The notes beneath the pieces were generated by a model that saw only the letters and a list, made by a program, of their open reading frames with translations, did not search any database and was not told the origin of the DNA. DNA of 64,000 nucleotides from an uncultured Bacilli bacterium (GTDB lineage: Bacteria > Bacillota_I > Bacilli_A > RF39 > UBA660), in contig CALVON010000025.1 in assembly GCA_944350315.1 (NCBI GenBank), positions 1 through 64,000 of the forward strand, given 5' to 3'. The translations under genes were made by a program, and so were the position numbers. Below are positions 792 through 15,586 of the stretch, piece after piece (positions within the stretch are counted from its first letter, which is position 1; every line of letters starts with the position of its first letter).

Positions 792-1887
792 TCATGAAAT
801 CCTTTAATTTTCTGCTTCTTGATGGATGGCGTAATTTTCTTAAGGCTTTTGCTTCAATTTGTCTAATTCTCTCCCTGGTTACTCCAAACATCTGCCCTAC
901 TTCTTCAAGTGTTTTACAGCAACCGTCATCAAGCCCAAAACGAAGTCTTAATACTTGTTCTTCTCTTTCAGTAAGGGTTAACAAAACATCGGATATTTCA
1001 TCTTTCAATAACTCATGAACAGTATATTCTTCTGGTGACATTGTTCTTTCATCTTTGACAAAATCTCCTAAATGCGAGTCATCTTCTTCTCCTATAGGAG
1101 TCTCTAATGAAACTGGTTCTTGAGCAATTTTTATCACTTCTCTTATTTTATCTAACGAAAGGTGCATTTTTTTAGCAAGTTCTTCTTCTGTTGGTTCACG
1201 ATTTAATTCTAGTGTTAATTGTCTTTGGAAACGTGATAATCGATTTATAGTTTCTACCATATGAACTGGAACTCTGATAGTTCTAGCTTGGTCAGCAATG
1301 GCTCTTGTTATGGCTTGTCTTATCCACCAGGTAGCATAAGTAGAAAATTTATATCCTTTTCCAGCGTCAAATTTTTCGACTGCTTTCATTAAACCAATAT
1401 TTCCTTCTTGAATTAAATCTAAAAATAACATTCCTCTTCCAACATATCTTTTAGCAATAGATACAACTAATCGAAGATTAGATTCTGCCAATTTATTCTT
1501 AGCATCTTCATCTCCTGCTACTATTCTAGCTGACAATTCCATTTCTTCTTCTAGCGTCAATAAGCTTATTTTCCCGATTTCCTTTAAATACATTCTTACG
1601 GGGTCACTAATTGTTAATTCTTTTGCAAGTGTATCATCTTTTAGTAAATCATCTAAATTTCCGCCACCACTACTATCTTCGCCGTCAGAACCATTTATAT
1701 CTTCATCTGTTACTACCTGAATATTCGCTTCCATCAAACTATTATATAAATCATCTAGCGAATCACTGTCTAACTCTAATCCTTTTAAAGAAGCTGCTAA
1801 TTCTTCATAAGTAATATATCCTTTCTCAGTACCTTTTTTTATTAATTCTTTCTTTCTTTCGTCATAAGTCTTTATTTCTTCGATCAT
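784..1887 (-). CDS. rpoD: Primary sigma factor RpoD (SigA)
   Basis: A 367-residue group 1 sigma-70 factor that directs RNA polymerase to housekeeping promoters. Region 1.1 is at the N-terminus, followed by an acidic linker, region 1.2 ([11 protein letters not shown]), region 2 with the signature [21 protein letters not shown] and WWIRQAI, region 3, and region 4 with [18 protein letters not shown] near residues 325-345. The ATG overlaps the dnaG stop (ATGA), and the gene end overlaps trmK, so the three form one operon. The length matches the B. subtilis protein closely. Confidence 0.97.
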
Positions 1888-3605
1888 TGTGTCACTCCCT
1901 TTAATATTAACATTTCATTTAAAATTTTTGCTTGTTTCATAGGATCTTTTTCTTCTTTAATTTGTTTTTCTAATTCATTTATTTTTCTCTTTATTGGATA
2001 GTCATTAATCACTTTAATATAATCTTCTATTTCTTCATTTGTATACTTTTCTTTAATTCTAGCATTCATAATTTCATTAAATAAATTTAACAATTTTTCG
2101 TTATTTGATAAGTAACTTATAAAATCGGCAATATTTATTGAATTATATTTATGATAGTAAGATATTATTTCATTTGATAATGCGCGATATTCTTCATTTG
2201 GAAAAAAGGTAATTTTTTTCTCAACTAATTTTATTATCTTTTCATCTTTTAACATATAATAAACAATATTTTGAGTAGCTTTATCGTACTGATTTAATCT
2301 AACTACCTTTTTTATGTTATTTTCAGATATCTTGCTGTTTATCTTTTCTTTTGCTTTAATATATTTATTTTTTAAGATATCATACCCTATTTTAAATTCA
2401 TTAGATAATTTATTTATGGTTAATTCCACTAAAATATCATCATTTTCCTTTGATAATTCTAAAATGCTTTCATCTATATACTTGGAAACATCTTGTAGGT
2501 CACTAAAATTTTTATTGTTTCTGTGGATTCGCATTAGATAGTCAATGGTATTTTCTGGATACGATATTTTAGACTTAAATTTATCAACACCATATTTTAA
2601 TATATATTCATCTGGATCTAAATTTTCTTCTAATCTAATTATTTTGGGATTTACATTTATTTCTTTAAAAATATTTATAGCATTGATAGTAGCTTCTTCT
2701 CCAGCAGCATCGCCATCAAAACATAAAATAATATTTTGGGCCATTTTTTTTAATAAATTTGCATTTTGCTTTGTTAGTGCTGTTCCCATGGTAGCAACGC
2801 AATTTGTGATGCCAATAGTATTGGCTCTAATTACGTCCATAAAACCCTCCATGACAATTATTGTATCATTTTTCTTAAGATGCTCATTAGCATTATGGTA
2901 GTTATATAAAATATTTCCTTTTTTAAAGAGTATAGTTTCTTTAGTATTTATATATTTACTAGCGTCTTTAGTATTATATATTCTTCCTGAAAAGCCAATG
3001 ATATTTCCTTCTAAATCATGTAATGGGAAAATTATTCTGTTAATAAATATATCTGTTCCATTTTCAGAGCTTATTCCTAAATCAATTAATTCTTTAAGAG
3101 TTATCTTTTTAGTTAATAAGTAATCCGTTAATGATGTTTTAGGAATAGATAATCCTATTTGAAATTTCTTTATAGTCTCTTTATCTATCTTTCTTTTTTC
3201 TAAGTATTCTCTTGCATTTTTCCCTAAATTTGTATTTAGGTTATTTTGATAAAATTTGCATGATAAATTATAAATATTATAATACTTTTCATTTTTATTA
3301 TCATTTTTCTTGATTGTTCCCAAATTGTACCCTACTTTATTTCCCAGTAGACGAACCGCCTCATAAAAATTGATGTGTTCGTAATCGGATACAAAGGTAA
3401 ATACATTTCCAGTAGCGCCACAAGAAAAGCAGGTAAAGATTTGTTTTTCTCGTGATACACTCATACTTGGTGAGTGATCATCATGAAATGGGCACACTCC
3501 AAAATAATTTTTTCCACGTTGTGTTAAAGGAATATAGTTTGATATAACATCAACAATATCTAGTTTATTTCTGATTTCATTTACAACTTCGTTTGTTATA
3601 TTCAT
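1884..3605 (-). CDS. dnaG: DNA primase DnaG
   Basis: Synthesises RNA primers at the replication fork. A 573-residue protein with an N-terminal zinc-binding domain ([10 protein letters not shown] with CFSCGATG, about residues 38-63), a Toprim core ([11 protein letters not shown], then [11 protein letters not shown]) and a weakly conserved C-terminal helicase-binding part. The frame is open for 27 more codons upstream, but I chose the ATG at 3605 because GGAGG lies five bases before it and the peptide [20 protein letters not shown] is the usual DnaG N-terminus. It is followed by rpoD with a 4-base overlap. Confidence 0.96.
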
Positions 3606-4868: not shown

Positions 4869-5520
4869 AATTATTAGTCGAGTCACCATTGCCTTTTATT
4901 GAATAAACTTCTCCTAAATATTTTGAAGAAGGGTGCCCTATACTTTTGAAAAAATCTTTTATTCTTGCTAAAAATTCACGAATATCTCGGTTTGATTGAT
5001 TTGGATATTTTATATCGTCTGTAGCTACTCCATAAGATTCTATCCCTAGCATATTTGCTATATATAAAGATCTATATAAATGATATTTTTGAGTTACAAT
5101 AACAATTTTTTCAGTCTTAAAAATTTCTTTTGCGCGATATATACTATCATATGAAGATATTCCATAATGATCCATAAAAATATCTTCTGAAGGTATTCCA
5201 TTTTCTATTAAATAATTTTTCATAACGTTTACTTCATCATAGTCTTCTTGAGTATGATCGCCACTTACTAAAATTTTTTTTGAAATACCACTATTATATA
5301 GTTTAATACCAGTTATTAGACGATCTTCTAACATGGCACTAGGTTTTTTATTTTGAATACTTGCTCCTAGAATTAAAATACAGTCAATATCATCTTGTGG
5401 GACTTTTTCTAGTGGTAATATTTTATTTTTAGTACTAAAAATCATATATGCATTAATTAAGCATAGTGATACTGCTAATAACAATGTCATCTTTATTATT
5501 ATCTTTATTAATTTTTTCAT
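4867..5520 (-). CDS. YdcF/SanA-like DUF218 membrane protein
   Basis: A 217-residue protein with one N-terminal membrane segment (about residues 7-28) and an extracytoplasmic DUF218 domain. Family features include DCILILGASIQNKKPSAML, ILVSGDHTQEDYDEV, SYDSIYRAKEIF and VTQKYHLYRSLYIA. Members such as SanA and YdcF are linked to envelope integrity and vancomycin exclusion, but the reaction is not settled. It stands as a single gene with hairpins on both sides. Confidence 0.8.
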   Translation of the reverse strand: MKKLIKIIIKMTLLLAVSLCLINAYMIFSTKNKILPLEKVPQDDIDCILILGASIQNKKPSAMLEDRLITGIKLYNSGISKKILVSGDHTQEDYDEVNVMKNYLIENGIPSEDIFMDHYGISSYDSIYRAKEIFKTEKIVIVTQKYHLYRSLYIANMLGIESYGVATDDIKYPNQSNRDIREFLARIKDFFKSIGHPSSKYLGEVYSIKGNGDSTNN

Positions 5521-7436: not shown

Positions 7437-8006
7437 CTACTTTTTTACAGCGCTATTAACATTTATTTTGCCACTAAAATTCTTATTCATCAAATTATTT
7501 TGATTTGTGTTATCTTCACTTAACCAAATATATAATTCATAATTATATGTTTTAGGATAAGAGTCAGGGGTAATTATTGTCATAGGTAGTAGTTTTAATG
7601 TCGTATCATTTCCAATATTGCTAAAGTCCCCACTAGCAACAGTGATGTCATCTTGTAGTAATTCATATTTATAATTTTTTATTTTAAGTTTTGGATCTAT
7701 AGCAATATTTATTAGTGATATTTCTATTCCAACTTCATATTGTTTTAAATTTTCATTGACAGTAATTGTAAAACTATTTTTATTTGCATAATTATATCTA
7801 TCTTCATCATAAATAGGCATATTTTGACTTGCTTTAATATATTCTGTTTGCGAAAAAATTACCGTTGGTACTTCTTTAATAGTATTTCCAGATACATTAG
7901 TTTGTGCATCCTTATAAGCATACCAACTATAAGTAGCCCCAAATGTAAGGATAACTATTGTGACAATAGTGAACGTAAGTATAATTATCATTTTTTTAAA
8001 TTCCAC
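7437..8006 (-). CDS. SipW-type exported TasA/camelysin-like protein B
   Basis: A 189-residue protein starting at GTG with GGGTGATAAA upstream. A hydrophobic helix (residues 6-25) leads into GATYSWYAYKDAQ, a SipW-type cleavage region, and the beta domain ends with YELYIWLSEDN and NLMNKNFSGKINV. The shared motif and size link it to the neighbouring gene and to the proteins at 12.3-13.5 kb. It most likely contributes to the same surface structure. No closer family could be named by eye. Confidence 0.58.
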   Translation of the reverse strand: MEFKKMIIILTFTIVTIVILTFGATYSWYAYKDAQTNVSGNTIKEVPTVIFSQTEYIKASQNMPIYDEDRYNYANKNSFTITVNENLKQYEVGIEISLINIAIDPKLKIKNYKYELLQDDITVASGDFSNIGNDTTLKLLPMTIITPDSYPKTYNYELYIWLSEDNTNQNNLMNKNFSGKINVNSAVKK

Positions 8007-8084
8007 TTTATCACCCTCACTCTACTATTTACTATATAATGATACCATAATTTAAAAATAATATCAATGTTATCTTTTTATTTT

Positions 8085-8121
8085 ATAAAAAAGAACTCTT
8101 TATAACTTACTTAGAGTTCTT
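8085..8121 (-). terminator. Terminator overlapping the end of gap
   Basis: AAGAACTCT and AGAGTTCTT form a 9-bp stem on the minus strand followed by TTTTTATA; the upstream arm lies in the last codons of gap. Confidence 0.65.
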
Positions 8122-9092
8122 ACCATTTGATATGAATAGCCCATTTCATTATCATACCAGGCAACAATGTGGACTAGCTGTTTTCCATCTACTTCAATTA
8201 TATTAGTTAAATTACCATCGACAGTGGCTCCATAGGTTGAAGATATTATATCAGATGATACTATTGGATCATCTGTGTAATTTATAGTTTCATTCATGTT
8301 ATTTTTAAAAGTTTCGTTAATTTTTTCTTTGGTTACATTTTCTTTTAATTCGACAACTAAATCAACTAGTGAACCATCTGATACTGGTACTCGTATTGCT
8401 GAGCCTAGTATTTTGCCATCTAAATTAGGTAATACTTTGCCAATTGCTTTAGCGGCTCCAGTTGATGTTGGGACTATGTTCATTGCACAAGCTCTACCAC
8501 GTCTTTCATAAATTCCTTTTTTGTGGGCTACATCAAGGGTCACTTGATCGTTTGTATATGCATGGATAGTTGTCATATTGCCCTTTACTATTTTAAAATT
8601 ATCGTCTAATACTTTTAATACTGGTGCTAGACAATTGGTCGTACAAGAAGCAGCTGAAACAATAATGTCATCTTCAGTTAAAATATCATCATTAACGTTA
8701 TATACAACTGTTTTCATATCCCCTTTTCCAGGTGCTGATATTAATACTTTTTTTGCTCCTGAATTAATGTGAAGCATAGCTTTTTCTTTACTTGTAAATT
8801 TTCCAGTACATTCTAATACTACATCAATGGCTAATTCTTTCCATGGCAAGTTTGATGGATCTAGCTCGCTAAAAACCCTCACTTTATGATTATCAACATA
8901 AATAAAAGCATCATCATAAGTTACATTTTTATCATACCTTCCATGATTTGTGTCATATTTAAGTAAATATGATAATTCTTCTGGTGTCGATAAGTCATTG
9001 ATTGCTACTACTTCCATGTCATCTAATTGTTCAATAATTCTAAACACTAATCTTCCTATTCTTCCAAAACCATTAATTGCTATTTTTTTCAT
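8100..9092 (-). CDS. gap: Glyceraldehyde-3-phosphate dehydrogenase
   Basis: Oxidises glyceraldehyde-3-phosphate to 1,3-bisphosphoglycerate with NAD in glycolysis. 330 residues, standard length. NAD site INGFGRIGRLVFRIIEQL at the N-terminus, catalytic SAASCTTNCLAPV with the active Cys near residue 150, and WYDNEMGYS at the end. It follows pilC-pilD and a small exported protein at 13 bases, an unusual neighbourhood for gap, and ends at a terminator. Other glycolytic genes are not in the window. Confidence 0.96.
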   Translation of the reverse strand: MKKIAINGFGRIGRLVFRIIEQLDDMEVVAINDLSTPEELSYLLKYDTNHGRYDKNVTYDDAFIYVDNHKVRVFSELDPSNLPWKELAIDVVLECTGKFTSKEKAMLHINSGAKKVLISAPGKGDMKTVVYNVNDDILTEDDIIVSAASCTTNCLAPVLKVLDDNFKIVKGNMTTIHAYTNDQVTLDVAHKKGIYERRGRACAMNIVPTSTGAAKAIGKVLPNLDGKILGSAIRVPVSDGSLVDLVVELKENVTKEKINETFKNNMNETINYTDDPIVSSDIISSTYGATVDGNLTNIIEVDGKQLVHIVAWYDNEMGYSYQMVRTLSKL

Positions 9093-9105
9093 AATTACCT
9101 CATTT

Positions 9106-9582
9106 CTATTTTATTAAGATTTCCCCATTTTGGGCTAAATCTTTAATTTCTCCTTTTTCAAATCCTACTAGAGCTCCTACTAATATGTCAATTTGTGTAT
9201 CACTATTGTTAACTATTTTTAAAGAGATACTTCTTGTCTGATTTGGTTTAATAATATTTTCTAATAAATCAAGTGAATCTTCTGATAAACTTACTATTAA
9301 ACCATCAACTTGGGTATTTGGTTCTATCATGTAATAATACATACCATATTTTACTGTTTGTGAATAAGTATTTGTTAGAACTATATCAACATATTTTTCT
9401 TCGTTTGGATTTATAATTATTTCTTTATTTGATTTTTCTTTTAATTGATATATAAAATTATAATTGGCTTCGGACTCTTCTAAAGTTGTATCTTCTTGAT
9501 TATAAGCAAATGTTGTATATAGTGTTATTGAGCTTAATACAAGAAAAAATAATAAAATAATAATTATTGTTCTTTTTTTCAT
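9106..9582 (-). CDS. Small exported protein of unknown function
   Basis: 158 residues with a classical N-terminal membrane segment (residues 4-22) and the sequence TTFAYNQEDT after it, close to the GATFAY leaders of its neighbours. The mature part looks like a beta-sandwich: KYVDIVLTNTYSQTVKYGMYY and RSISLKIVNNSDTQIDILVGAL. This recalls DUF916-like or TasA-like folds but cannot be named. AGGAGG lies before the ATG. It lies between pilD and gap in the same orientation, so may be co-transcribed with the pilus genes. Confidence 0.5.
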   Translation of the reverse strand: MKKRTIIIILLFFLVLSSITLYTTFAYNQEDTTLEESEANYNFIYQLKEKSNKEIIINPNEEKYVDIVLTNTYSQTVKYGMYYYMIEPNTQVDGLIVSLSEDSLDLLENIIKPNQTRSISLKIVNNSDTQIDILVGALVGFEKGEIKDLAQNGEILIK

Positions 9583-9625
9583 AATACCTCCTTCTTATTT
9601 TTAACAATTAAAATCTTTTTATGTT

Positions 9626-10390
9626 TTAATTAATCAAAAAGTTAATAATATCTGAAAAATTTAATCCCCATATATATAAAATTATTCCGGCCATGCTCAA
9701 GAAAGGTCCAAAGGGTATTATATTATCTTTTTTAAATATTAGTAAAAATAGAGCAATTGGAAAAGCAATAAATGTTGCAAAGAAAATATTACATATGGAC
9801 ATTGGATATCCTATTACTAATCCTACTAAAAACATTAGTTTTATATCTCCTCCGCCAAGAGACTCTTGTTTAAACATGATATCACCAATTTTTTTTATCA
9901 ATATCATAGTTATAAATGAGCCTAATCCAGATGCAACTTTAAAAGCTGTTTCATATAGGCCAATATCTATTATGTCAACAACAATGATAGAAAATATAGC
10001 AATAATTAATACTTCATCTAAAATTATCATATATTCAATATCACTTATAATAATTATTATTAGACTAGAGACAAAGATGAGAGCTACTATCAACTGAAGT
10101 GAATAACCAAATACATGGTAACAGACGGCAAATAATATACCCGTACATATCTCCATTAAAATATAACTAATTGGCATTTTTGCTTTACACTTTCGACATT
10201 TACCACCTTGTATTAAGTAAGATATAATAGGTATTAGTTCATACCATTTTAAATAGTGATTACAATTTTCACAATGTGATGGTGGGCTAATAATCGATTT
10301 TCCTTTGGATAATCTCGAAGCTATCACGTGATAAAACGAGCCCATAACACTACCGAATACGAAAAAAATAGTTAAGTATAAGTATTCCAT
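9626..10390 (-). CDS. pilD: Prepilin peptidase / N-methyltransferase (PilD/ComC)
   Basis: Cleaves the leader of type IV prepilins and methylates the new N-terminus. 254 residues, A24 family, with about eight membrane segments. The cytoplasmic zinc site has two CxxC pairs (CENC and CRKC, residues 41-66). Both catalytic aspartates are visible: one in IIISDIEYMI and one in LGGGDIKLM. Its start lies 12 bases after pilC, and the likely substrate class is the prepilin at 51.8 kb. In many Bacillota the same enzyme serves the competence pseudopilus, which fits comEA/comEC here. Confidence 0.93.
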   Translation of the reverse strand: MEYLYLTIFFVFGSVMGSFYHVIASRLSKGKSIISPPSHCENCNHYLKWYELIPIISYLIQGGKCRKCKAKMPISYILMEICTGILFAVCYHVFGYSLQLIVALIFVSSLIIIIISDIEYMIILDEVLIIAIFSIIVVDIIDIGLYETAFKVASGLGSFITMILIKKIGDIMFKQESLGGGDIKLMFLVGLVIGYPMSICNIFFATFIAFPIALFLLIFKKDNIIPFGPFLSMAGIILYIWGLNFSDIINFLIN

Positions 10391-10402
10391 ATAAAACTCC
10401 CC

Positions 10403-11740
10403 TTATATAATTGTGCTATATATATCAAACATAGGTACTACAACAGCTAATAAGATAATTCCTACAATAACTGCTAACATGATTATCATGACAGGTTCTA
10501 TTAAACTTTTAAGTCTAGATATAATATTAGTTTGTTCTTCTTGATAATATGCGGCAACATGTTCCATCATTTCACCTAGTTTACCAGTTTTTTCACCAGT
10601 TACTAACATTTCATAGGCAGTTTCTGGAAATGCCCAATGATTTTTAAAAGCGACAGACACGCCATTTCCTTTACTTAAATTATTAATTGAGTCATTAATT
10701 ATTTTTTTATAAATTTCATTTTCAGTAATTCTACTTAAAATATCCATACTATCAGTTATAAAGACATCATGCTTAATCAAAGTAGAAAAGGTACTGGTAA
10801 ATATTACTAATTGATTATATTTAATAATATCCTTAACAACAGGAATATGCATAACAATATATTGAAGATAATATTTGAATTTTTTAGATGTTTTATAAAA
10901 GGTTGTAATTGATAAAACAATAATTAAAATTATTCCTAAAATAAAATACCAATAATTAGTTACAAACTCACTCATATTCATAATACTAATAGTTATTTGT
11001 GGTAAATTTGAGCCTGTTGTTTCATACATTGATGTAAATGATGGAACAACATATGTTATAACAAAGGTTAAAACAGCTACTGCAAAAATCATTAAAACAG
11101 AAGGATATGTCATAGCATTGATAATTTGCTTACGATTACTATCTTGTCTTTTATAGTAAGCGGCCATATCATCAAGAACCTCAGTTAAGTCTCCGGTCAT
11201 TTCTGATGTCTTTAACATATTAATTAACATTTTAGGAAAAACTTTTCCTTGCTTTTCTAGGCATTGACTAAAAGATAGTCCTCTATTTAGATTAAAGACA
11301 ATTCTTCTATATAGCATTTGTACACTTCTTTTTTTACTTTGATGGCTTAATATTTCCATTGAATCAAGAAGTGGTATACCTGATTTTACATAAGTAGATA
11401 ATTGAGTTAAAAAGAATGTTAAATCTTTAGAACTCATTTTTCTAGTAGATGATAAATTTGCTAGGCCTAAACTAGTAGATAGTTTATCTTCTTCAATAGA
11501 AATAATTTCATACCCTTTATTTAAAAGAAAAGACTCTACGCTAACTTTGTTTTCAGCATCAAAGTAGCTTTCAATTATTTTCCCATCAGATTGTCTCACT
11601 TTGTATTTATATCTTTTTAGTTTATTGCTTGTATCATTGGTGGTTTTATCATTTAAATTGTTATTTAATTGATTAACAGGATTAATTAGTTTAGTATTAT
11701 TTCCATTATTGTACATATTAGGATTTTGACTATTATTCAC
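10403..11740 (-). CDS. pilC: Type II secretion / type IV pilus inner membrane protein (PilC/GspF/ComGB)
   Basis: 445 residues. An Asn-rich first 40 residues, a small beta domain (YKYKVRQSDGKIIESYFDAE), then two T2SF domains of about 120 residues each (FLTQLSTYVKSGIPLLDSME and FTSTFSTLIKHDVFITDSMD) with three membrane segments. It forms the platform for pilus assembly. GTG start with AGGTGG upstream. The ATPase (PilB/ComGA) usually encoded just upstream is absent; instead a divergent YqfQ-like gene lies there, so the ATPase must be elsewhere. Confidence 0.9.
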   Translation of the reverse strand: MNNSQNPNMYNNGNNTKLINPVNQLNNNLNDKTTNDTSNKLKRYKYKVRQSDGKIIESYFDAENKVSVESFLLNKGYEIISIEEDKLSTSLGLANLSSTRKMSSKDLTFFLTQLSTYVKSGIPLLDSMEILSHQSKKRSVQMLYRRIVFNLNRGLSFSQCLEKQGKVFPKMLINMLKTSEMTGDLTEVLDDMAAYYKRQDSNRKQIINAMTYPSVLMIFAVAVLTFVITYVVPSFTSMYETTGSNLPQITISIMNMSEFVTNYWYFILGIILIIVLSITTFYKTSKKFKYYLQYIVMHIPVVKDIIKYNQLVIFTSTFSTLIKHDVFITDSMDILSRITENEIYKKIINDSINNLSKGNGVSVAFKNHWAFPETAYEMLVTGEKTGKLGEMMEHVAAYYQEEQTNIISRLKSLIEPVMIIMLAVIVGIILLAVVVPMFDIYSTII

Positions 11741-11851
11741 AATTTCACCACCTTTTACTTTTTACTTATATTATAATTGTATCACAAATATTATTTTTTT
11801 TAAAACTTTTTTTATATTTTTACATATATTAGTATAGGAAGGGATATTAAT

Positions 11852-12271
11852 ATGAATCCACAAAGATTTTTTATACCAAATATGTATAATATGAGAATGC
11901 CTGCTGCTTCAATGATGAGAATGGGAAGTACGGGATCTAGAGGAATTGGTTTATTTAATAGACTGGGAATTAATTTTAAAAATTTTAGTTTTAGTGGGTT
12001 ACTTAGTGGTGCTAATAAAACTTTAAACGTTGTCAATCAAACAATTCCACTTGTTAGACAAGCAAAACCGATGGTAAACAATGTAAGATCAATGTTAAAA
12101 CTAGCAAGAGCATTTGGAAATGAGACTATTTCTAAAAATAATGCTAATAATATAGAAAATAATAAAATGAGTAATAATATAAATATTACAAACACCAATA
12201 GTAATGGTAAAGAGATAATTGATAATAATGTGAATAATTATTATGATAATTATCCTAATTTCTTTATATAA
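11852..12271 (+). CDS. VrrA/YqfQ-like protein
   Basis: 139 residues, no membrane segment. The N-terminus is rich in Met, Pro, Phe and Arg (MNPQRFFIPNMYNMRMP), the middle has GLFNRLGINFKNFSFSGLLS followed by TLNVVNQTIPLVRQAKPMV and SMLKLARAFG, and the tail is Asn-rich. This layout matches the VrrA/YqfQ family of Bacillus. In B. subtilis yqfQ lies near trmK, rpoD and nfo, all of which are in this window. The function is unknown. AGGAAGGG precedes the ATG; the gene ends in a bidirectional terminator. Confidence 0.65.
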   Translation: MNPQRFFIPNMYNMRMPAASMMRMGSTGSRGIGLFNRLGINFKNFSFSGLLSGANKTLNVVNQTIPLVRQAKPMVNNVRSMLKLARAFGNETISKNNANNIENNKMSNNINITNTNSNGKEIIDNNVNNYYDNYPNFFI

Positions 12272-12305
12272 AAAGGACTTTATGTTTTTAAATAAAGTCC
12301 TTTTT
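12271..12305. terminator. Bidirectional terminator
   Basis: AAAAAGGACTTTAT and ATAAAGTCCTTTTT form a long AT-flanked stem with an 8-base loop between two convergent genes, with T runs in both directions. Confidence 0.85.
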
Positions 12306-12944
12306 CTATCCTAATTGTCTTATAATTCCTGACCACTCAAGAGTAAAATTTAAATTTTGCATGGAATCGGTATTATTATTACCAATATTAATATGTTCAT
12401 ATGCCGAATCTAACCATATATATAAATATAAAGGTTGAATTTGGGTTTCTGTACTAATATTTGAAGATATATTATTTTGAATGGTAATTAAATTTTGAGG
12501 TAAATTATGATAATCTACATTTGAAAAGTCTCCACTTTGAATAATACCAGTAGTACAACTATTTTCAGTATTAGTAATAACCCATTTCAAATAACTTAAT
12601 TGTTCATTAGTAGGATTACCATTATTAGCAGTAAAACTAGTAATATCTAGATTAGCAACAATTTCTCCACTAATATCAGTATTGTTAATATATGTTATAG
12701 TGATTTCTTTTTGAAGGGCATCGGAACTCAAACAATTTGATGTTGGTATTAAAGAATTAATATCAATACTACTACCACCATCTATTTTAGCAGACATATT
12801 AGACGTATCTCCTTCAACTTTTAAAGAAATACTAGTTTCTTCTTCTTCACTAGTCATCCATTGCCAATATGCAAAAGTTGCCCCAGCTATAACTACAATA
12901 ATCAAGATAGCAATAATTGTTGAAAAAATAAATTTTTTTTTCAT
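12306..12944 (-). CDS. SipW-type exported TasA/camelysin-like protein C
   Basis: 212 residues. The leader is a basic start, a 17-residue hydrophobic helix and GATFAYWQWMTSEEEETS, almost the same as the leader end of the large protein at 13.7 kb (GGTLAYWRWQTSEEQKTN). The beta domain ends LYLYIWLDSAYEHINIG. It contains two Cys (SNCLSSDAL, NSCTTGI) that could pair outside the cell. It follows the next gene upstream by 10 bases and likely belongs to the same surface structure. Confidence 0.6.
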   Translation of the reverse strand: MKKKFIFSTIIAILIIVVIAGATFAYWQWMTSEEEETSISLKVEGDTSNMSAKIDGGSSIDINSLIPTSNCLSSDALQKEITITYINNTDISGEIVANLDITSFTANNGNPTNEQLSYLKWVITNTENSCTTGIIQSGDFSNVDYHNLPQNLITIQNNISSNISTETQIQPLYLYIWLDSAYEHINIGNNNTDSMQNLNFTLEWSGIIRQLG

Positions 12945-12954
12945 TTATATAATC

Positions 12955-13533
12955 CTAATTATGAGATTGTTCAGCAGAAGCATGAATATATCCACTATAA
13001 CTATTTTGATCAGGAGTTTCTAATATATCGTTAGTTATTAGGCTACCATCTAACCAAAAATAAACAAAGTAATATCTATTTGCTGTTGTTAAATCATTAG
13101 GATCTACGTACAAATCTTTTTCACCACTAGCGTTAATAGTACCTGTAGCTACAGCTTGTGAAAAATCGGTTGTACAACTAGAAGCTTCAGTAGAACTTGT
13201 ACATACAGCATAATTTAGAGCACCTGAGGTTGTTAATAAGGTATCAGAATTAGTAGTTAATTTTACAGTTAATTTACCTGCTACGGAATTAGTTGAAAGT
13301 TTAGCTGATACAGTTCTAACTGCTGCACTTTCAGGAGTACCAGTACTTAAAATAGGTACATCGTCTAAAGTTTGTGCACCGACATAATCAATTACAAAAT
13401 TACCAGTAATAGTATTATAATTACCATTTGTTATGTTCGCACTAAATGTTAACCATGCAAAAGTAGCTCCTGCTATTAACACTATAAAAAATATTACGCC
13501 GATTATTGTTCCAATCAATTTTTTCTTATCCAT
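12955..13533 (-). CDS. SipW-type exported TasA/camelysin-like protein D
   Basis: 192 residues. Leader with helix IIGVIFFIVLIAGATFAWLTF, then a Ser/Thr-rich beta domain with VRTVSAKLSTNSVAGKLTVK and the end motif YYFVYFWLDGSLITND followed by NSYSGYIHAS. Two Cys (YAVCTSSTEASSC) may form a disulphide. GGAGG precedes the ATG, and a TGATATAAT box lies about 30 bases upstream. It is the first gene of a two-gene operon with protein C. Confidence 0.6.
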   Translation of the reverse strand: MDKKKLIGTIIGVIFFIVLIAGATFAWLTFSANITNGNYNTITGNFVIDYVGAQTLDDVPILSTGTPESAAVRTVSAKLSTNSVAGKLTVKLTTNSDTLLTTSGALNYAVCTSSTEASSCTTDFSQAVATGTINASGEKDLYVDPNDLTTANRYYFVYFWLDGSLITNDILETPDQNSYSGYIHASAEQSHN

Positions 13534-13572: not shown

Positions 13573-13617
13573 TAAAATATTAATAATTTATATATTTTTT
13601 TATAAGTAGCCTACCCC

Positions 13618-13653
13618 GTGCCCGGTTTGCAAAAAAAGAGGCAAACCGGGCAC
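13618..13653. repeat. GC-rich perfect inverted repeat downstream of the variable gene
   Basis: GTGCCCGGTTTGC and GCAAACCGGGCAC form a perfect 13-bp stem around a 10-base loop that carries the T run (AAAAAAAGAG on the plus strand). A T run after the stem, as in intrinsic terminators, is missing on both strands. GC-rich hairpin or cruciform repeats just after the variable region are known to aid homing in DGR target genes. It could also fold in the mRNA. Confidence 0.7.
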
Positions 13654-13729
13654 GACTCCATTTCGTATTTTTCTGCTACCTATTTATCTTTTCTTATTGT
13701 CATAACCTCCGTTTCTAAAGAGCATGTCG

Positions 13730-15586
13730 CTACGCTCCTATGCCGAAAACCAAGTGGGCGGCGCTGCCAGAGTACGCATTACCATAATTGCTGCGGAAGT
13801 AGAAGACGCCCGCACCAACCCCAGCGTGGCAGTAACCACCACGACCGAACCACGGATGACTTGAAGAAACGAAACTGGCATAATCACTATACCATGATTT
13901 TGTTTCTGATAAAGCATGCCCAAAACATACTCCACCATTACAAGCCGTTAAACTACTTGTTGTGGTATATTTATCATAATATTTGCTTACTGGAAATGCA
14001 CTAAAGCCACTATTACTTGCTGTATTATTATAATTTCCCATTACATATTCATATGCTCCACCAGACATATCATATACTCCAGTAATATTTCCTGTGGTAC
14101 TTGCTACCTTAGTTAAATCTCTTGTTGATGATTTAGTATTTGTATTATAATTTAACAAGTATCCATCCCAGGTATAAAAACCATATGTATTATACTGAGT
14201 TGTTGATGTTTGATCTGTATATGTCCCATTTATTGGGGTACTTCCTCCAACATTTCCACCACTTCTTCCCGTATAATATCCACTGCTATTATTTATATAT
14301 ACTTCTCTATTTACACCATATTTTGAGTGTGATAAATAGGCTACGGCTCCCCACTCACTATTTTTCATCATATGACTATCAGTATCTGTAGTTAACCCAT
14401 AAACTGATGAACCAGTAAATGTCACTTCACTTCCTGATAATGTACCTCCAGCAAATATCAAGGCTGTTTGAAACTGTGCTGACACATTTTGATCTCTTAA
14501 TGACGTCACATCCGGTAATACTGTTGGCACTGAGTCACTTCCTGTTGTTTCAAACTTACCTACCCATATACCTGATAACTCTTCTCCTGCATCTCTTACT
14601 CCATCACTATCATCATCCCACCAAAAGGCTGGATGGGTAATATATTCTCCTACTTGAGTGCCTGTTGATATTTCATCTTTTGATTCAAATACGATTTCTA
14701 TTTCTTGTTCTTGTCCTCTACTACTTTCTTGTAGTGTCCATATTTTATATTTATATCTTGGTATCCATACAAGGTATGCTAATATATCTGATTGATCTAC
14801 TTCTACACCAGATGTGTTTAGATATGTATCTCTTGATGATTCTGTTACTAGTATTGCATTAGCCCATTCTTTATTTGAATAATTATACCAACTACTATCA
14901 TCTGCTGATACTGTTTTTATTATGGTATTATCTCCTGATACATCAAATGTTATTGGTATCATTCCTTCATCTAATAATGGATTACTTGGCTTAACTTCTG
15001 ACGATACATCTGTACAACTTCCATTTAATGATAAACTAAATGATTGATTCATTGTTGATGATGATTCTTCTTTAGCATCTAACCATATCCATAAATAAAA
15101 TGTTACTGGATTTGATGAAGAATATTCATTTTCTGTAAATAATCTAATTTTATCTCCAGCTTGTTTTCCTTTAAAATTACCTGATACTACAACGTCTTGA
15201 TATGGACTAGTATCAGTAGTAGTAAATGAATACATAAAATTATCACTATTAGATAGGCCTGTACCGATACTATTTATATCTAACCATAAATCCATATAGA
15301 TAGTTTTATCTGCTACATTAATTGTTGGTGTTACGGTTACTGTTCTTTTTATATAGTTAGCACTATTTTCTTCCGTCACTTCTGTTGGTACTAAAGTAAC
15401 ATCACCTTGACTTATATTACCCCCACCATCAGCTGCACATGAAAAATCTGATTCTAATGTAAATACTACATTAGTTTTTTGTTCTTCACTAGTTTGCCAT
15501 CTCCAATAAGCAAGTGTTCCCCCTAATATTGTAAATATTACTGTTAATATTGATAATGTAATTATTATTTTTTTATTTCTATCCAT
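13730..15586 (-). CDS. Large SipW-type surface protein with C-type-lectin/FGE-like domain and DGR-type variable C-terminus
   Basis: 618 residues. Leader (residues 6-27) ending GGTLAYWRWQTSEE; a TasA-like beta domain (30-205) with IYMDLWLDIN and FYLWIWLDAKEE; a linker; then from about 272 a lectin-type domain: VWIPRYKYKIW, THPAFWW, ELSGIWVGKFE, NSEWGAVAYLSHSKYGVN, VYDMSGGAYEYVMGNY and WFGRGGY. The second large surface protein (35.4 kb) shares all of these. The last 40 codons are 59 per cent GC and mostly NNC codons, unlike the rest. The expected last motif GFR lies in another frame, reading on to a stop at 13680, so the present C-terminus seems frameshifted. Binding function is inferred. Confidence 0.75.
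   Translation of the reverse strand: MDRNKKIIITLSILTVIFTILGGTLAYWRWQTSEEQKTNVVFTLESDFSCAADGGGNISQGDVTLVPTEVTEENSANYIKRTVTVTPTINVADKTIYMDLWLDINSIGTGLSNSDNFMYSFTTTDTSPYQDVVVSGNFKGKQAGDKIRLFTENEYSSSNPVTFYLWIWLDAKEESSSTMNQSFSLSLNGSCTDVSSEVKPSNPLLDEGMIPITFDVSGDNTIIKTVSADDSSWYNYSNKEWANAILVTESSRDTYLNTSGVEVDQSDILAYLVWIPRYKYKIWTLQESSRGQEQEIEIVFESKDEISTGTQVGEYITHPAFWWDDDSDGVRDAGEELSGIWVGKFETTGSDSVPTVLPDVTSLRDQNVSAQFQTALIFAGGTLSGSEVTFTGSSVYGLTTDTDSHMMKNSEWGAVAYLSHSKYGVNREVYINNSSGYYTGRSGGNVGGSTPINGTYTDQTSTTQYNTYGFYTWDGYLLNYNTNTKSSTRDLTKVASTTGNITGVYDMSGGAYEYVMGNYNNTASNSGFSAFPVSKYYDKYTTTSSLTACNGGVCFGHALSETKSWYSDYASFVSSSHPWFGRGGYCHAGVGAGVFYFRSNYGNAYSGSAAHLVFGIGA
13735..13862 (-). other. Candidate DGR variable region (VR)
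   Basis: The last 40 codons of the surface gene. From the Tyr after RGG to the His before the end, 16 of 27 codons end in C (TAC, TGC, CAC, GGC, GTC, TTC, CGC, AGC, GCC). GC is 71 of 120 in 13741-13860 against 19 of 60 in 13921-13980. NNC codons arise when AAC codons of a template repeat are randomised at A. The peptide pattern RGGxxxxGxxAGxFxF, then GNA, fits DGR variable proteins. Template repeat and reverse transcriptase are not in the window. Confidence 0.7.

Follow-up and report, generated by a model that had tools for sequence, protein, structure and literature searches.

The window analysed here is a stretch of 64,000 nucleotides (64 kb) from an uncultured bacterium of the RF39-type Bacilli. 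On its minus strand, positions 13730..15586 form an ORF of 618 aa, with a hydrophobic SipW/TasA-like leader at the N-terminus of its product and an FGE/C-type-lectin-like domain at the C-terminus. The match of the protein to PF03781 is weak and lies below the cut-off. The last 40 codons have a GC content of 59.2%, compared with 32.3% for the remainder of the gene. This tail is the most GC-rich 120-bp stretch of the whole window, in which such stretches average 25.9% GC (sd 6.3%) and every other one stays at or below 50%. C is the last base in 16 of the 27 codons from the Tyr after RGG onward; in the remainder of the gene the share is 5%. The preliminary description of this DNA had pointed out such a GC-rich tail with C-ending codons, and the C-terminal peptide, RGGYCHAGVGAGVFYFRSNYGNAYSGSAAHLVFGIGA up to the stop, also reads as it had described. 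Small SipW/TasA-like secreted proteins are clustered at 7437-13533, beside two genes that resemble those for a prepilin peptidase (9626-10390) and for GspF/PilC (10403-11740).

The genome assembly that contains the window (G000) comprises 1.18 Mb in 46 contigs, is 94.9% complete and has a contamination estimate of 2.06%. A DNA search of this assembly identified the same GC-rich 3′ module in four genes, on contigs C25 (the window), C34, C1 and C39. The module consists of a variable region (VR), a spacer of 86 bp and a hairpin rich in GC. Differences among the four modules are clustered inside about 100 bp, in which the blocks CGTGGTG, GCGGGCGTCTTC, GCCGCCC and TTGGTT are near-invariant. The 115 nt past the stop, covering spacer and hairpin, are 93–97% identical among the four, a higher conservation than that of the coding flank. 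The target genes themselves are duplicated paralogs with 76–86% identity. Three further paralogs (C21, C33 and C4) have AT-rich, diverged tails and are devoid of the hairpin.

A putative template was written from the VR copies alone, with A placed wherever the copies differ, and used as a query. It matched G000:C1:58014-58126 (minus) at 96% over 113 bp, and the DNA search of the assembly also matched this repeat, at 81%. The template repeat (TR; C1:58014-58125, minus) reads RGGNYNNGVNAGVFNFNNNNGNANSNNAARLVFG and is not part of a target gene; the C1 target and the C1 hairpin lie upstream of it. Its homology delimits the window VR to 112 bp (13741..13852, minus) at the 3′ end of the target gene, within the C-type-lectin (CLec/FGE) fold, which is the position characteristic of DGR targets. 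The window VR departs from the TR at 18 of the 29 template adenines and at 3 of the 82 other positions (Fisher p = 1.3e-10). Similarly, the C1 VR, which lies beside the TR, is changed at 21/29 adenines and 4/82 non-adenines (p = 1.6e-12), and the C39 VR at 17/29 and 11/82 (p = 5.5e-6). The suggestion that 13735-13862 is a DGR variable region is therefore upheld by a TR in the same genome from which it differs almost exclusively at template A; the bounds given then miss those of the actual TR/VR homology by no more than about 10 bp, and the repeat it had foreseen, matching the VR except at template adenines, is the one on contig C1. The C34 VR has another length: relative to the TR, 12 bp are deleted and 3 bp inserted. 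Because of these length changes, C34 probably derives from another template, and a second TR probably exists or existed; a search of the genome with the RNA model described below did not find a second TR for C34 or C39.

An ordinary family of paralogs, in which gene conversion and positive selection rather than a retroelement had produced the diversity, would also present duplicated genes of 76–86% identity. Yet the odds ratios for change at template adenines range from 9 to 51 in the three targets, the TR resides outside any target gene and is accompanied by a DGR-type 3′ RNA, and the coding flank is less conserved than spacer and hairpin. Gene conversion of this kind is refuted by the adenine-specific comparison of TR and VR, and we give it hardly any credence. 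The contrast in GC content (59% vs 32%), together with the contamination estimate of 2.06%, could alternatively be taken to mean that the tail was inserted recently by horizontal transfer from a donor richer in GC, or that the contig is mis-binned. Nevertheless, the module is common to four contigs of the bin, the genes upstream of it are paralogs with 76–86% identity, and a GC-rich VR tail at the end of an AT-rich gene is the general rule among relatives. Such tails are expected, since a TR with GC-rich fixed codons turns AAY into NNY. A foreign origin is thus exceedingly improbable and is refuted by the presence of the TR in the same genome.

The 3′ ends of TR and VR have the features of a DGR pair. 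Both share the end ..TTTTCGGCA and then diverge, the VR continuing with TAGGAGCG and the TR with GACTACAG, as IMH and IMH* do. In the alignment of the TR with the four VRs, the invariant VR 3′ end TTGGTTTTCGGCA occupies 13741..13753 (minus) and is a candidate initiation-of-homing end. The stop codon and a non-coding spacer common to all four modules follow at 13655..13740 (minus), and then a GC-rich hairpin, CGTGCCCGGTTTGC-CTCTTTTTTT-GCAAACCGGGCACG, at 13617..13654 (minus). A hairpin downstream of the VR is typical of DGRs, and this one is a candidate target-recognition hairpin or cruciform. It is present in 4/4 modules, and its spacing is similar in most of the relatives checked, where several genomes have a hairpin with a CTCTTTT-like pyrimidine loop 63–84 bp past the stop, and others lie at 28–101 bp. 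In the congeneric genome G005, the loop CTCTTTTTTT/GCCTCTTTTTTTGC is kept and the outer stem is different yet still paired. The spacer also holds a mini-ORF, nearly identical across all four modules, at 13680-13710 (minus) of the window (ATG ACA ATA AGA AAA GAT AAA TAG, with a GGAGG site).

The fold of the target domain was modelled with AlphaFold from the C-terminal 419 residues and 14 homologues, giving a moderate pTM of 0.77 and a mean pLDDT of 69.6, with the VR partly below 70. In a Foldseek comparison with the PDB, the best match was TaqVP (5vf4; prob 1.00, E 1.6e-5) and the next was Mtd, both ahead of everything else. The model thus agrees with the lectin/FGE-like domain assigned earlier and supports the fold class of DGR variable proteins (CLec), in class but not in detail because the TM-scores are modest (0.37–0.40).

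The stretch of roughly 165 nt that follows the TR on its 3′ side has two covarying stems in common with the flanks of TRs from six relatives. In the alignment of these seven sequences (six relatives and the G000 TR), 12 of 16 pairs have at least one two-sided change, and the RNA model made from it finds one location only in the genome. The Rfam RT-14 RNA scores 21.9 bits against the G000 flank, below the gathering threshold of 48.1, and 55.6 bits against the TR flank of the relative L136, above the threshold. In the relatives, the RT-14 RNA (RF02921) coincides with the TR 3′ flank at L136:3555-3696, L132:5216-5325 and L133:3706-3856 (all minus), with the scores in L132 and L133 just below the threshold. 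RT-14 may simply be the template-RNA 3′ element of this DGR lineage. The G000 RNA is devoid of the last conserved stem and GTTAGTAG motif of the relatives, which may reflect partial decay.

Searches for the enzymes of the system gave a different outcome. The preliminary description had looked to the genome for a DGR-clade reverse transcriptase (RT) and an Avd-like protein; neither an RT of this clade, with its signature [ILV]GxxxSQ and YMDD, nor Avd was found in the 46 contigs. The DGR RTs of the relative L139 and the congeneric G006, used as queries, gave nothing convincing in the 94.9%-complete assembly. Similarly, there was no PF22296 match for Avd, and the L139 bAvd query gave nothing convincing. 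The same queries (G006 RT and bAvd) match several other genomes. The sole RVT_1 match in the assembly is a retron RT. This RT, on C13, was considered as the DGR RT and rejected, as PADLOC assigns it with its neighbor to a type III-A retron (C13:1291-3688, locus L002; a PRTase-like gene followed by the retron RT) and a comparison of the surrounding region with the VR found nothing. The segment that follows the VR had no exact match in the genome and virus collections searched. The earlier idea of a target acted on in trans was right for the template, because the TR is on another contig; the RT, its other part, did not turn up in the 46 contigs. We therefore claim a DGR target and its TR, short of a complete DGR. 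The RT may be unassembled, off-chromosome or mobile, or lost. An assembly gap is favored, because the DGR RT contigs of relatives are often short or end close to these repeats. The genomes G047 and G124 likewise have a TR with no RT in the stretch read, and no DGR RT or Avd match.

Loss of the RT would make the locus a relic, a former DGR VR whose companion VRs, TR and hairpins are decaying. This is the most serious alternative, though we hold it to be rather unlikely. The lack of RT and Avd matches in an assembly of this completeness, the truncated TR 3′ RNA, and the AT-drifted tails without hairpin in C21, C33 and C4 are all in its favor, and RT-less Treponema denticola strains are known to keep leftover targets (PMC4891356). 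Against decay, the window VR still agrees with the TR at 79 of the 82 non-A positions, in a genome with an average GC content of 26% across the window, and the stem of the window hairpin is intact. The short RT contigs of relatives also make loss during assembly likely.

Complete systems are found in relatives of the same family, in which DGR-type RTs adjoin TR/VR pairs with adenine-specific differences, and also adjoin the same target domain as that of the window gene. For instance, the order in L139 is target, TR, a MutS_I-like protein (PF01624), bAvd (PF22296) and RT, and phrog_3206, 'Avd protein of DGR', was matched in a relative DGR. The DGRs of L134, L138, L139 and L146 share with the window genome the target domain, the TR peptide type RGGNYNNGxNAGVFNFNNNNGNAN, the hairpin and the TR 3′ RNA. 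In these four an RT lies near the TR, and L134 and L139 additionally have bAvd and the MutS_I-like protein, whereas the TR of the window genome stands alone. Several genomes carry two TRs about 420 bp apart (L127–L129) and L221 carries three. The arrays are at L221:8991-10278, L127:6678-7100, L128:529-953 and L129:532-952, with one RT in each of L221 and L127 and none seen in L128 and L129. Other targets also occur. The L139 target (1864-3519) is a fusion of the lectin-like VR domain to the N-terminus of a type IV prepilin (GFTLIELL) and is possibly a self-diversifying pilin. In the congeneric G006, the DGR (L077:5242-6417, minus; TR near 4966, minus; a different RT subtype, LGNQTSQ) has as its target a SipW-type protein with a non-FGE tail.

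Taken as a whole, these observations make it probable that 13741-13852 is the VR of a DGR that acts in trans. What speaks against it is the missing RT and Avd, the non-A differences from the TR (3 in the window VR and 11 in C39), the length changes of C34 and the incomplete TR 3′ RNA. We infer error-prone reverse transcription of the TR RNA in trans, followed by retrohoming. A complex of DGR RT and Avd, with its genes elsewhere in the cell, would reverse-transcribe the TR RNA and place random bases opposite template adenines, and the cDNA would then be copied into any VR that carries both the hairpin and the common 3′ end. This would rewrite about 16 codons, AAY or others with an A, on the exposed face of the C-type-lectin-like domain of a fibre-type surface protein, secreted or anchored. 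As a result, the binding partner, such as a host glycan, a phage or a neighboring cell, would probably vary; we infer this putative role in binding a variable partner because of the leader and the known targets of DGRs (PMC8144416). A bolder and quite doubtful extension is that this family of gut Bacilli keeps RT-less cassettes of TR and targets scattered on the chromosome and served by the RT of a mobile or shared element. If that were true, one mobile RT could rewrite the whole repertoire of fibre-type surface proteins via different TRs.

The locus points to a hypervariation system that has several SipW/TasA-like surface proteins as its targets, in reduced-genome Bacilli known only from MAGs. 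A literature search for DGRs in RF39-type Bacilli found no paper. The target copies alone suffice to recognize VRs and to predict the remote template. Remote targets escape metagenomic surveys in which an adjacent RT is required, as the authors of these surveys state (PMC8144416). With a TR, hairpin and 3′ RNA that recur, what the Rfam RT-14 RNA does can be put to the test.

Earlier work has already described DGRs with multiple targets and loci that have no RT. In Thiohalocapsa PB-PSB1, loci without RT or TR have VRs that match a remote TR, and their activity in trans was deduced by a test of non-A identity (PMC10907252). The window VR, with neither RT nor TR nearby, likewise matches a TR elsewhere by the same test; in PB-PSB1, complete loci are present and population variation has been observed, whereas the window genome, in which no complete locus was found, is known from one assembly. 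The DGR of Treponema denticola (TvpA) has several chromosomal targets per TR, with remote VRs (PMC4891356). It resembles the window genome in having several targets per TR, in surface targets of FGE/CLec fold with a C-terminal VR, and in the presence of targets in RT-less strains. The T. denticola targets are of FGE-sulfatase and lipoprotein type, while the window leader is SipW/TasA-like; the window locus also differs in its hairpin, 86 bp from the VR with a long pyrimidine loop, in an RT that was not found, and in belonging to an unrelated phylum. The DGR of Bordetella phage BPP-1 (Mtd) shares with the window locus A-specific copying from TR to VR, a CLec-fold target, and a GC-rich hairpin after the VR with a variable stem and a constrained loop; in BPP-1, both the stem structure and the loop sequence of the hairpin matter (PMC3240598). 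Hairpins of the BPP-1 type have stems of 7–10 bp and 4-nt GRNA loops at 4–34 bp from the VR, unlike the window hairpin, with its stem of 13–15 bp and loop of 8–10 nt at 86 bp from the VR.
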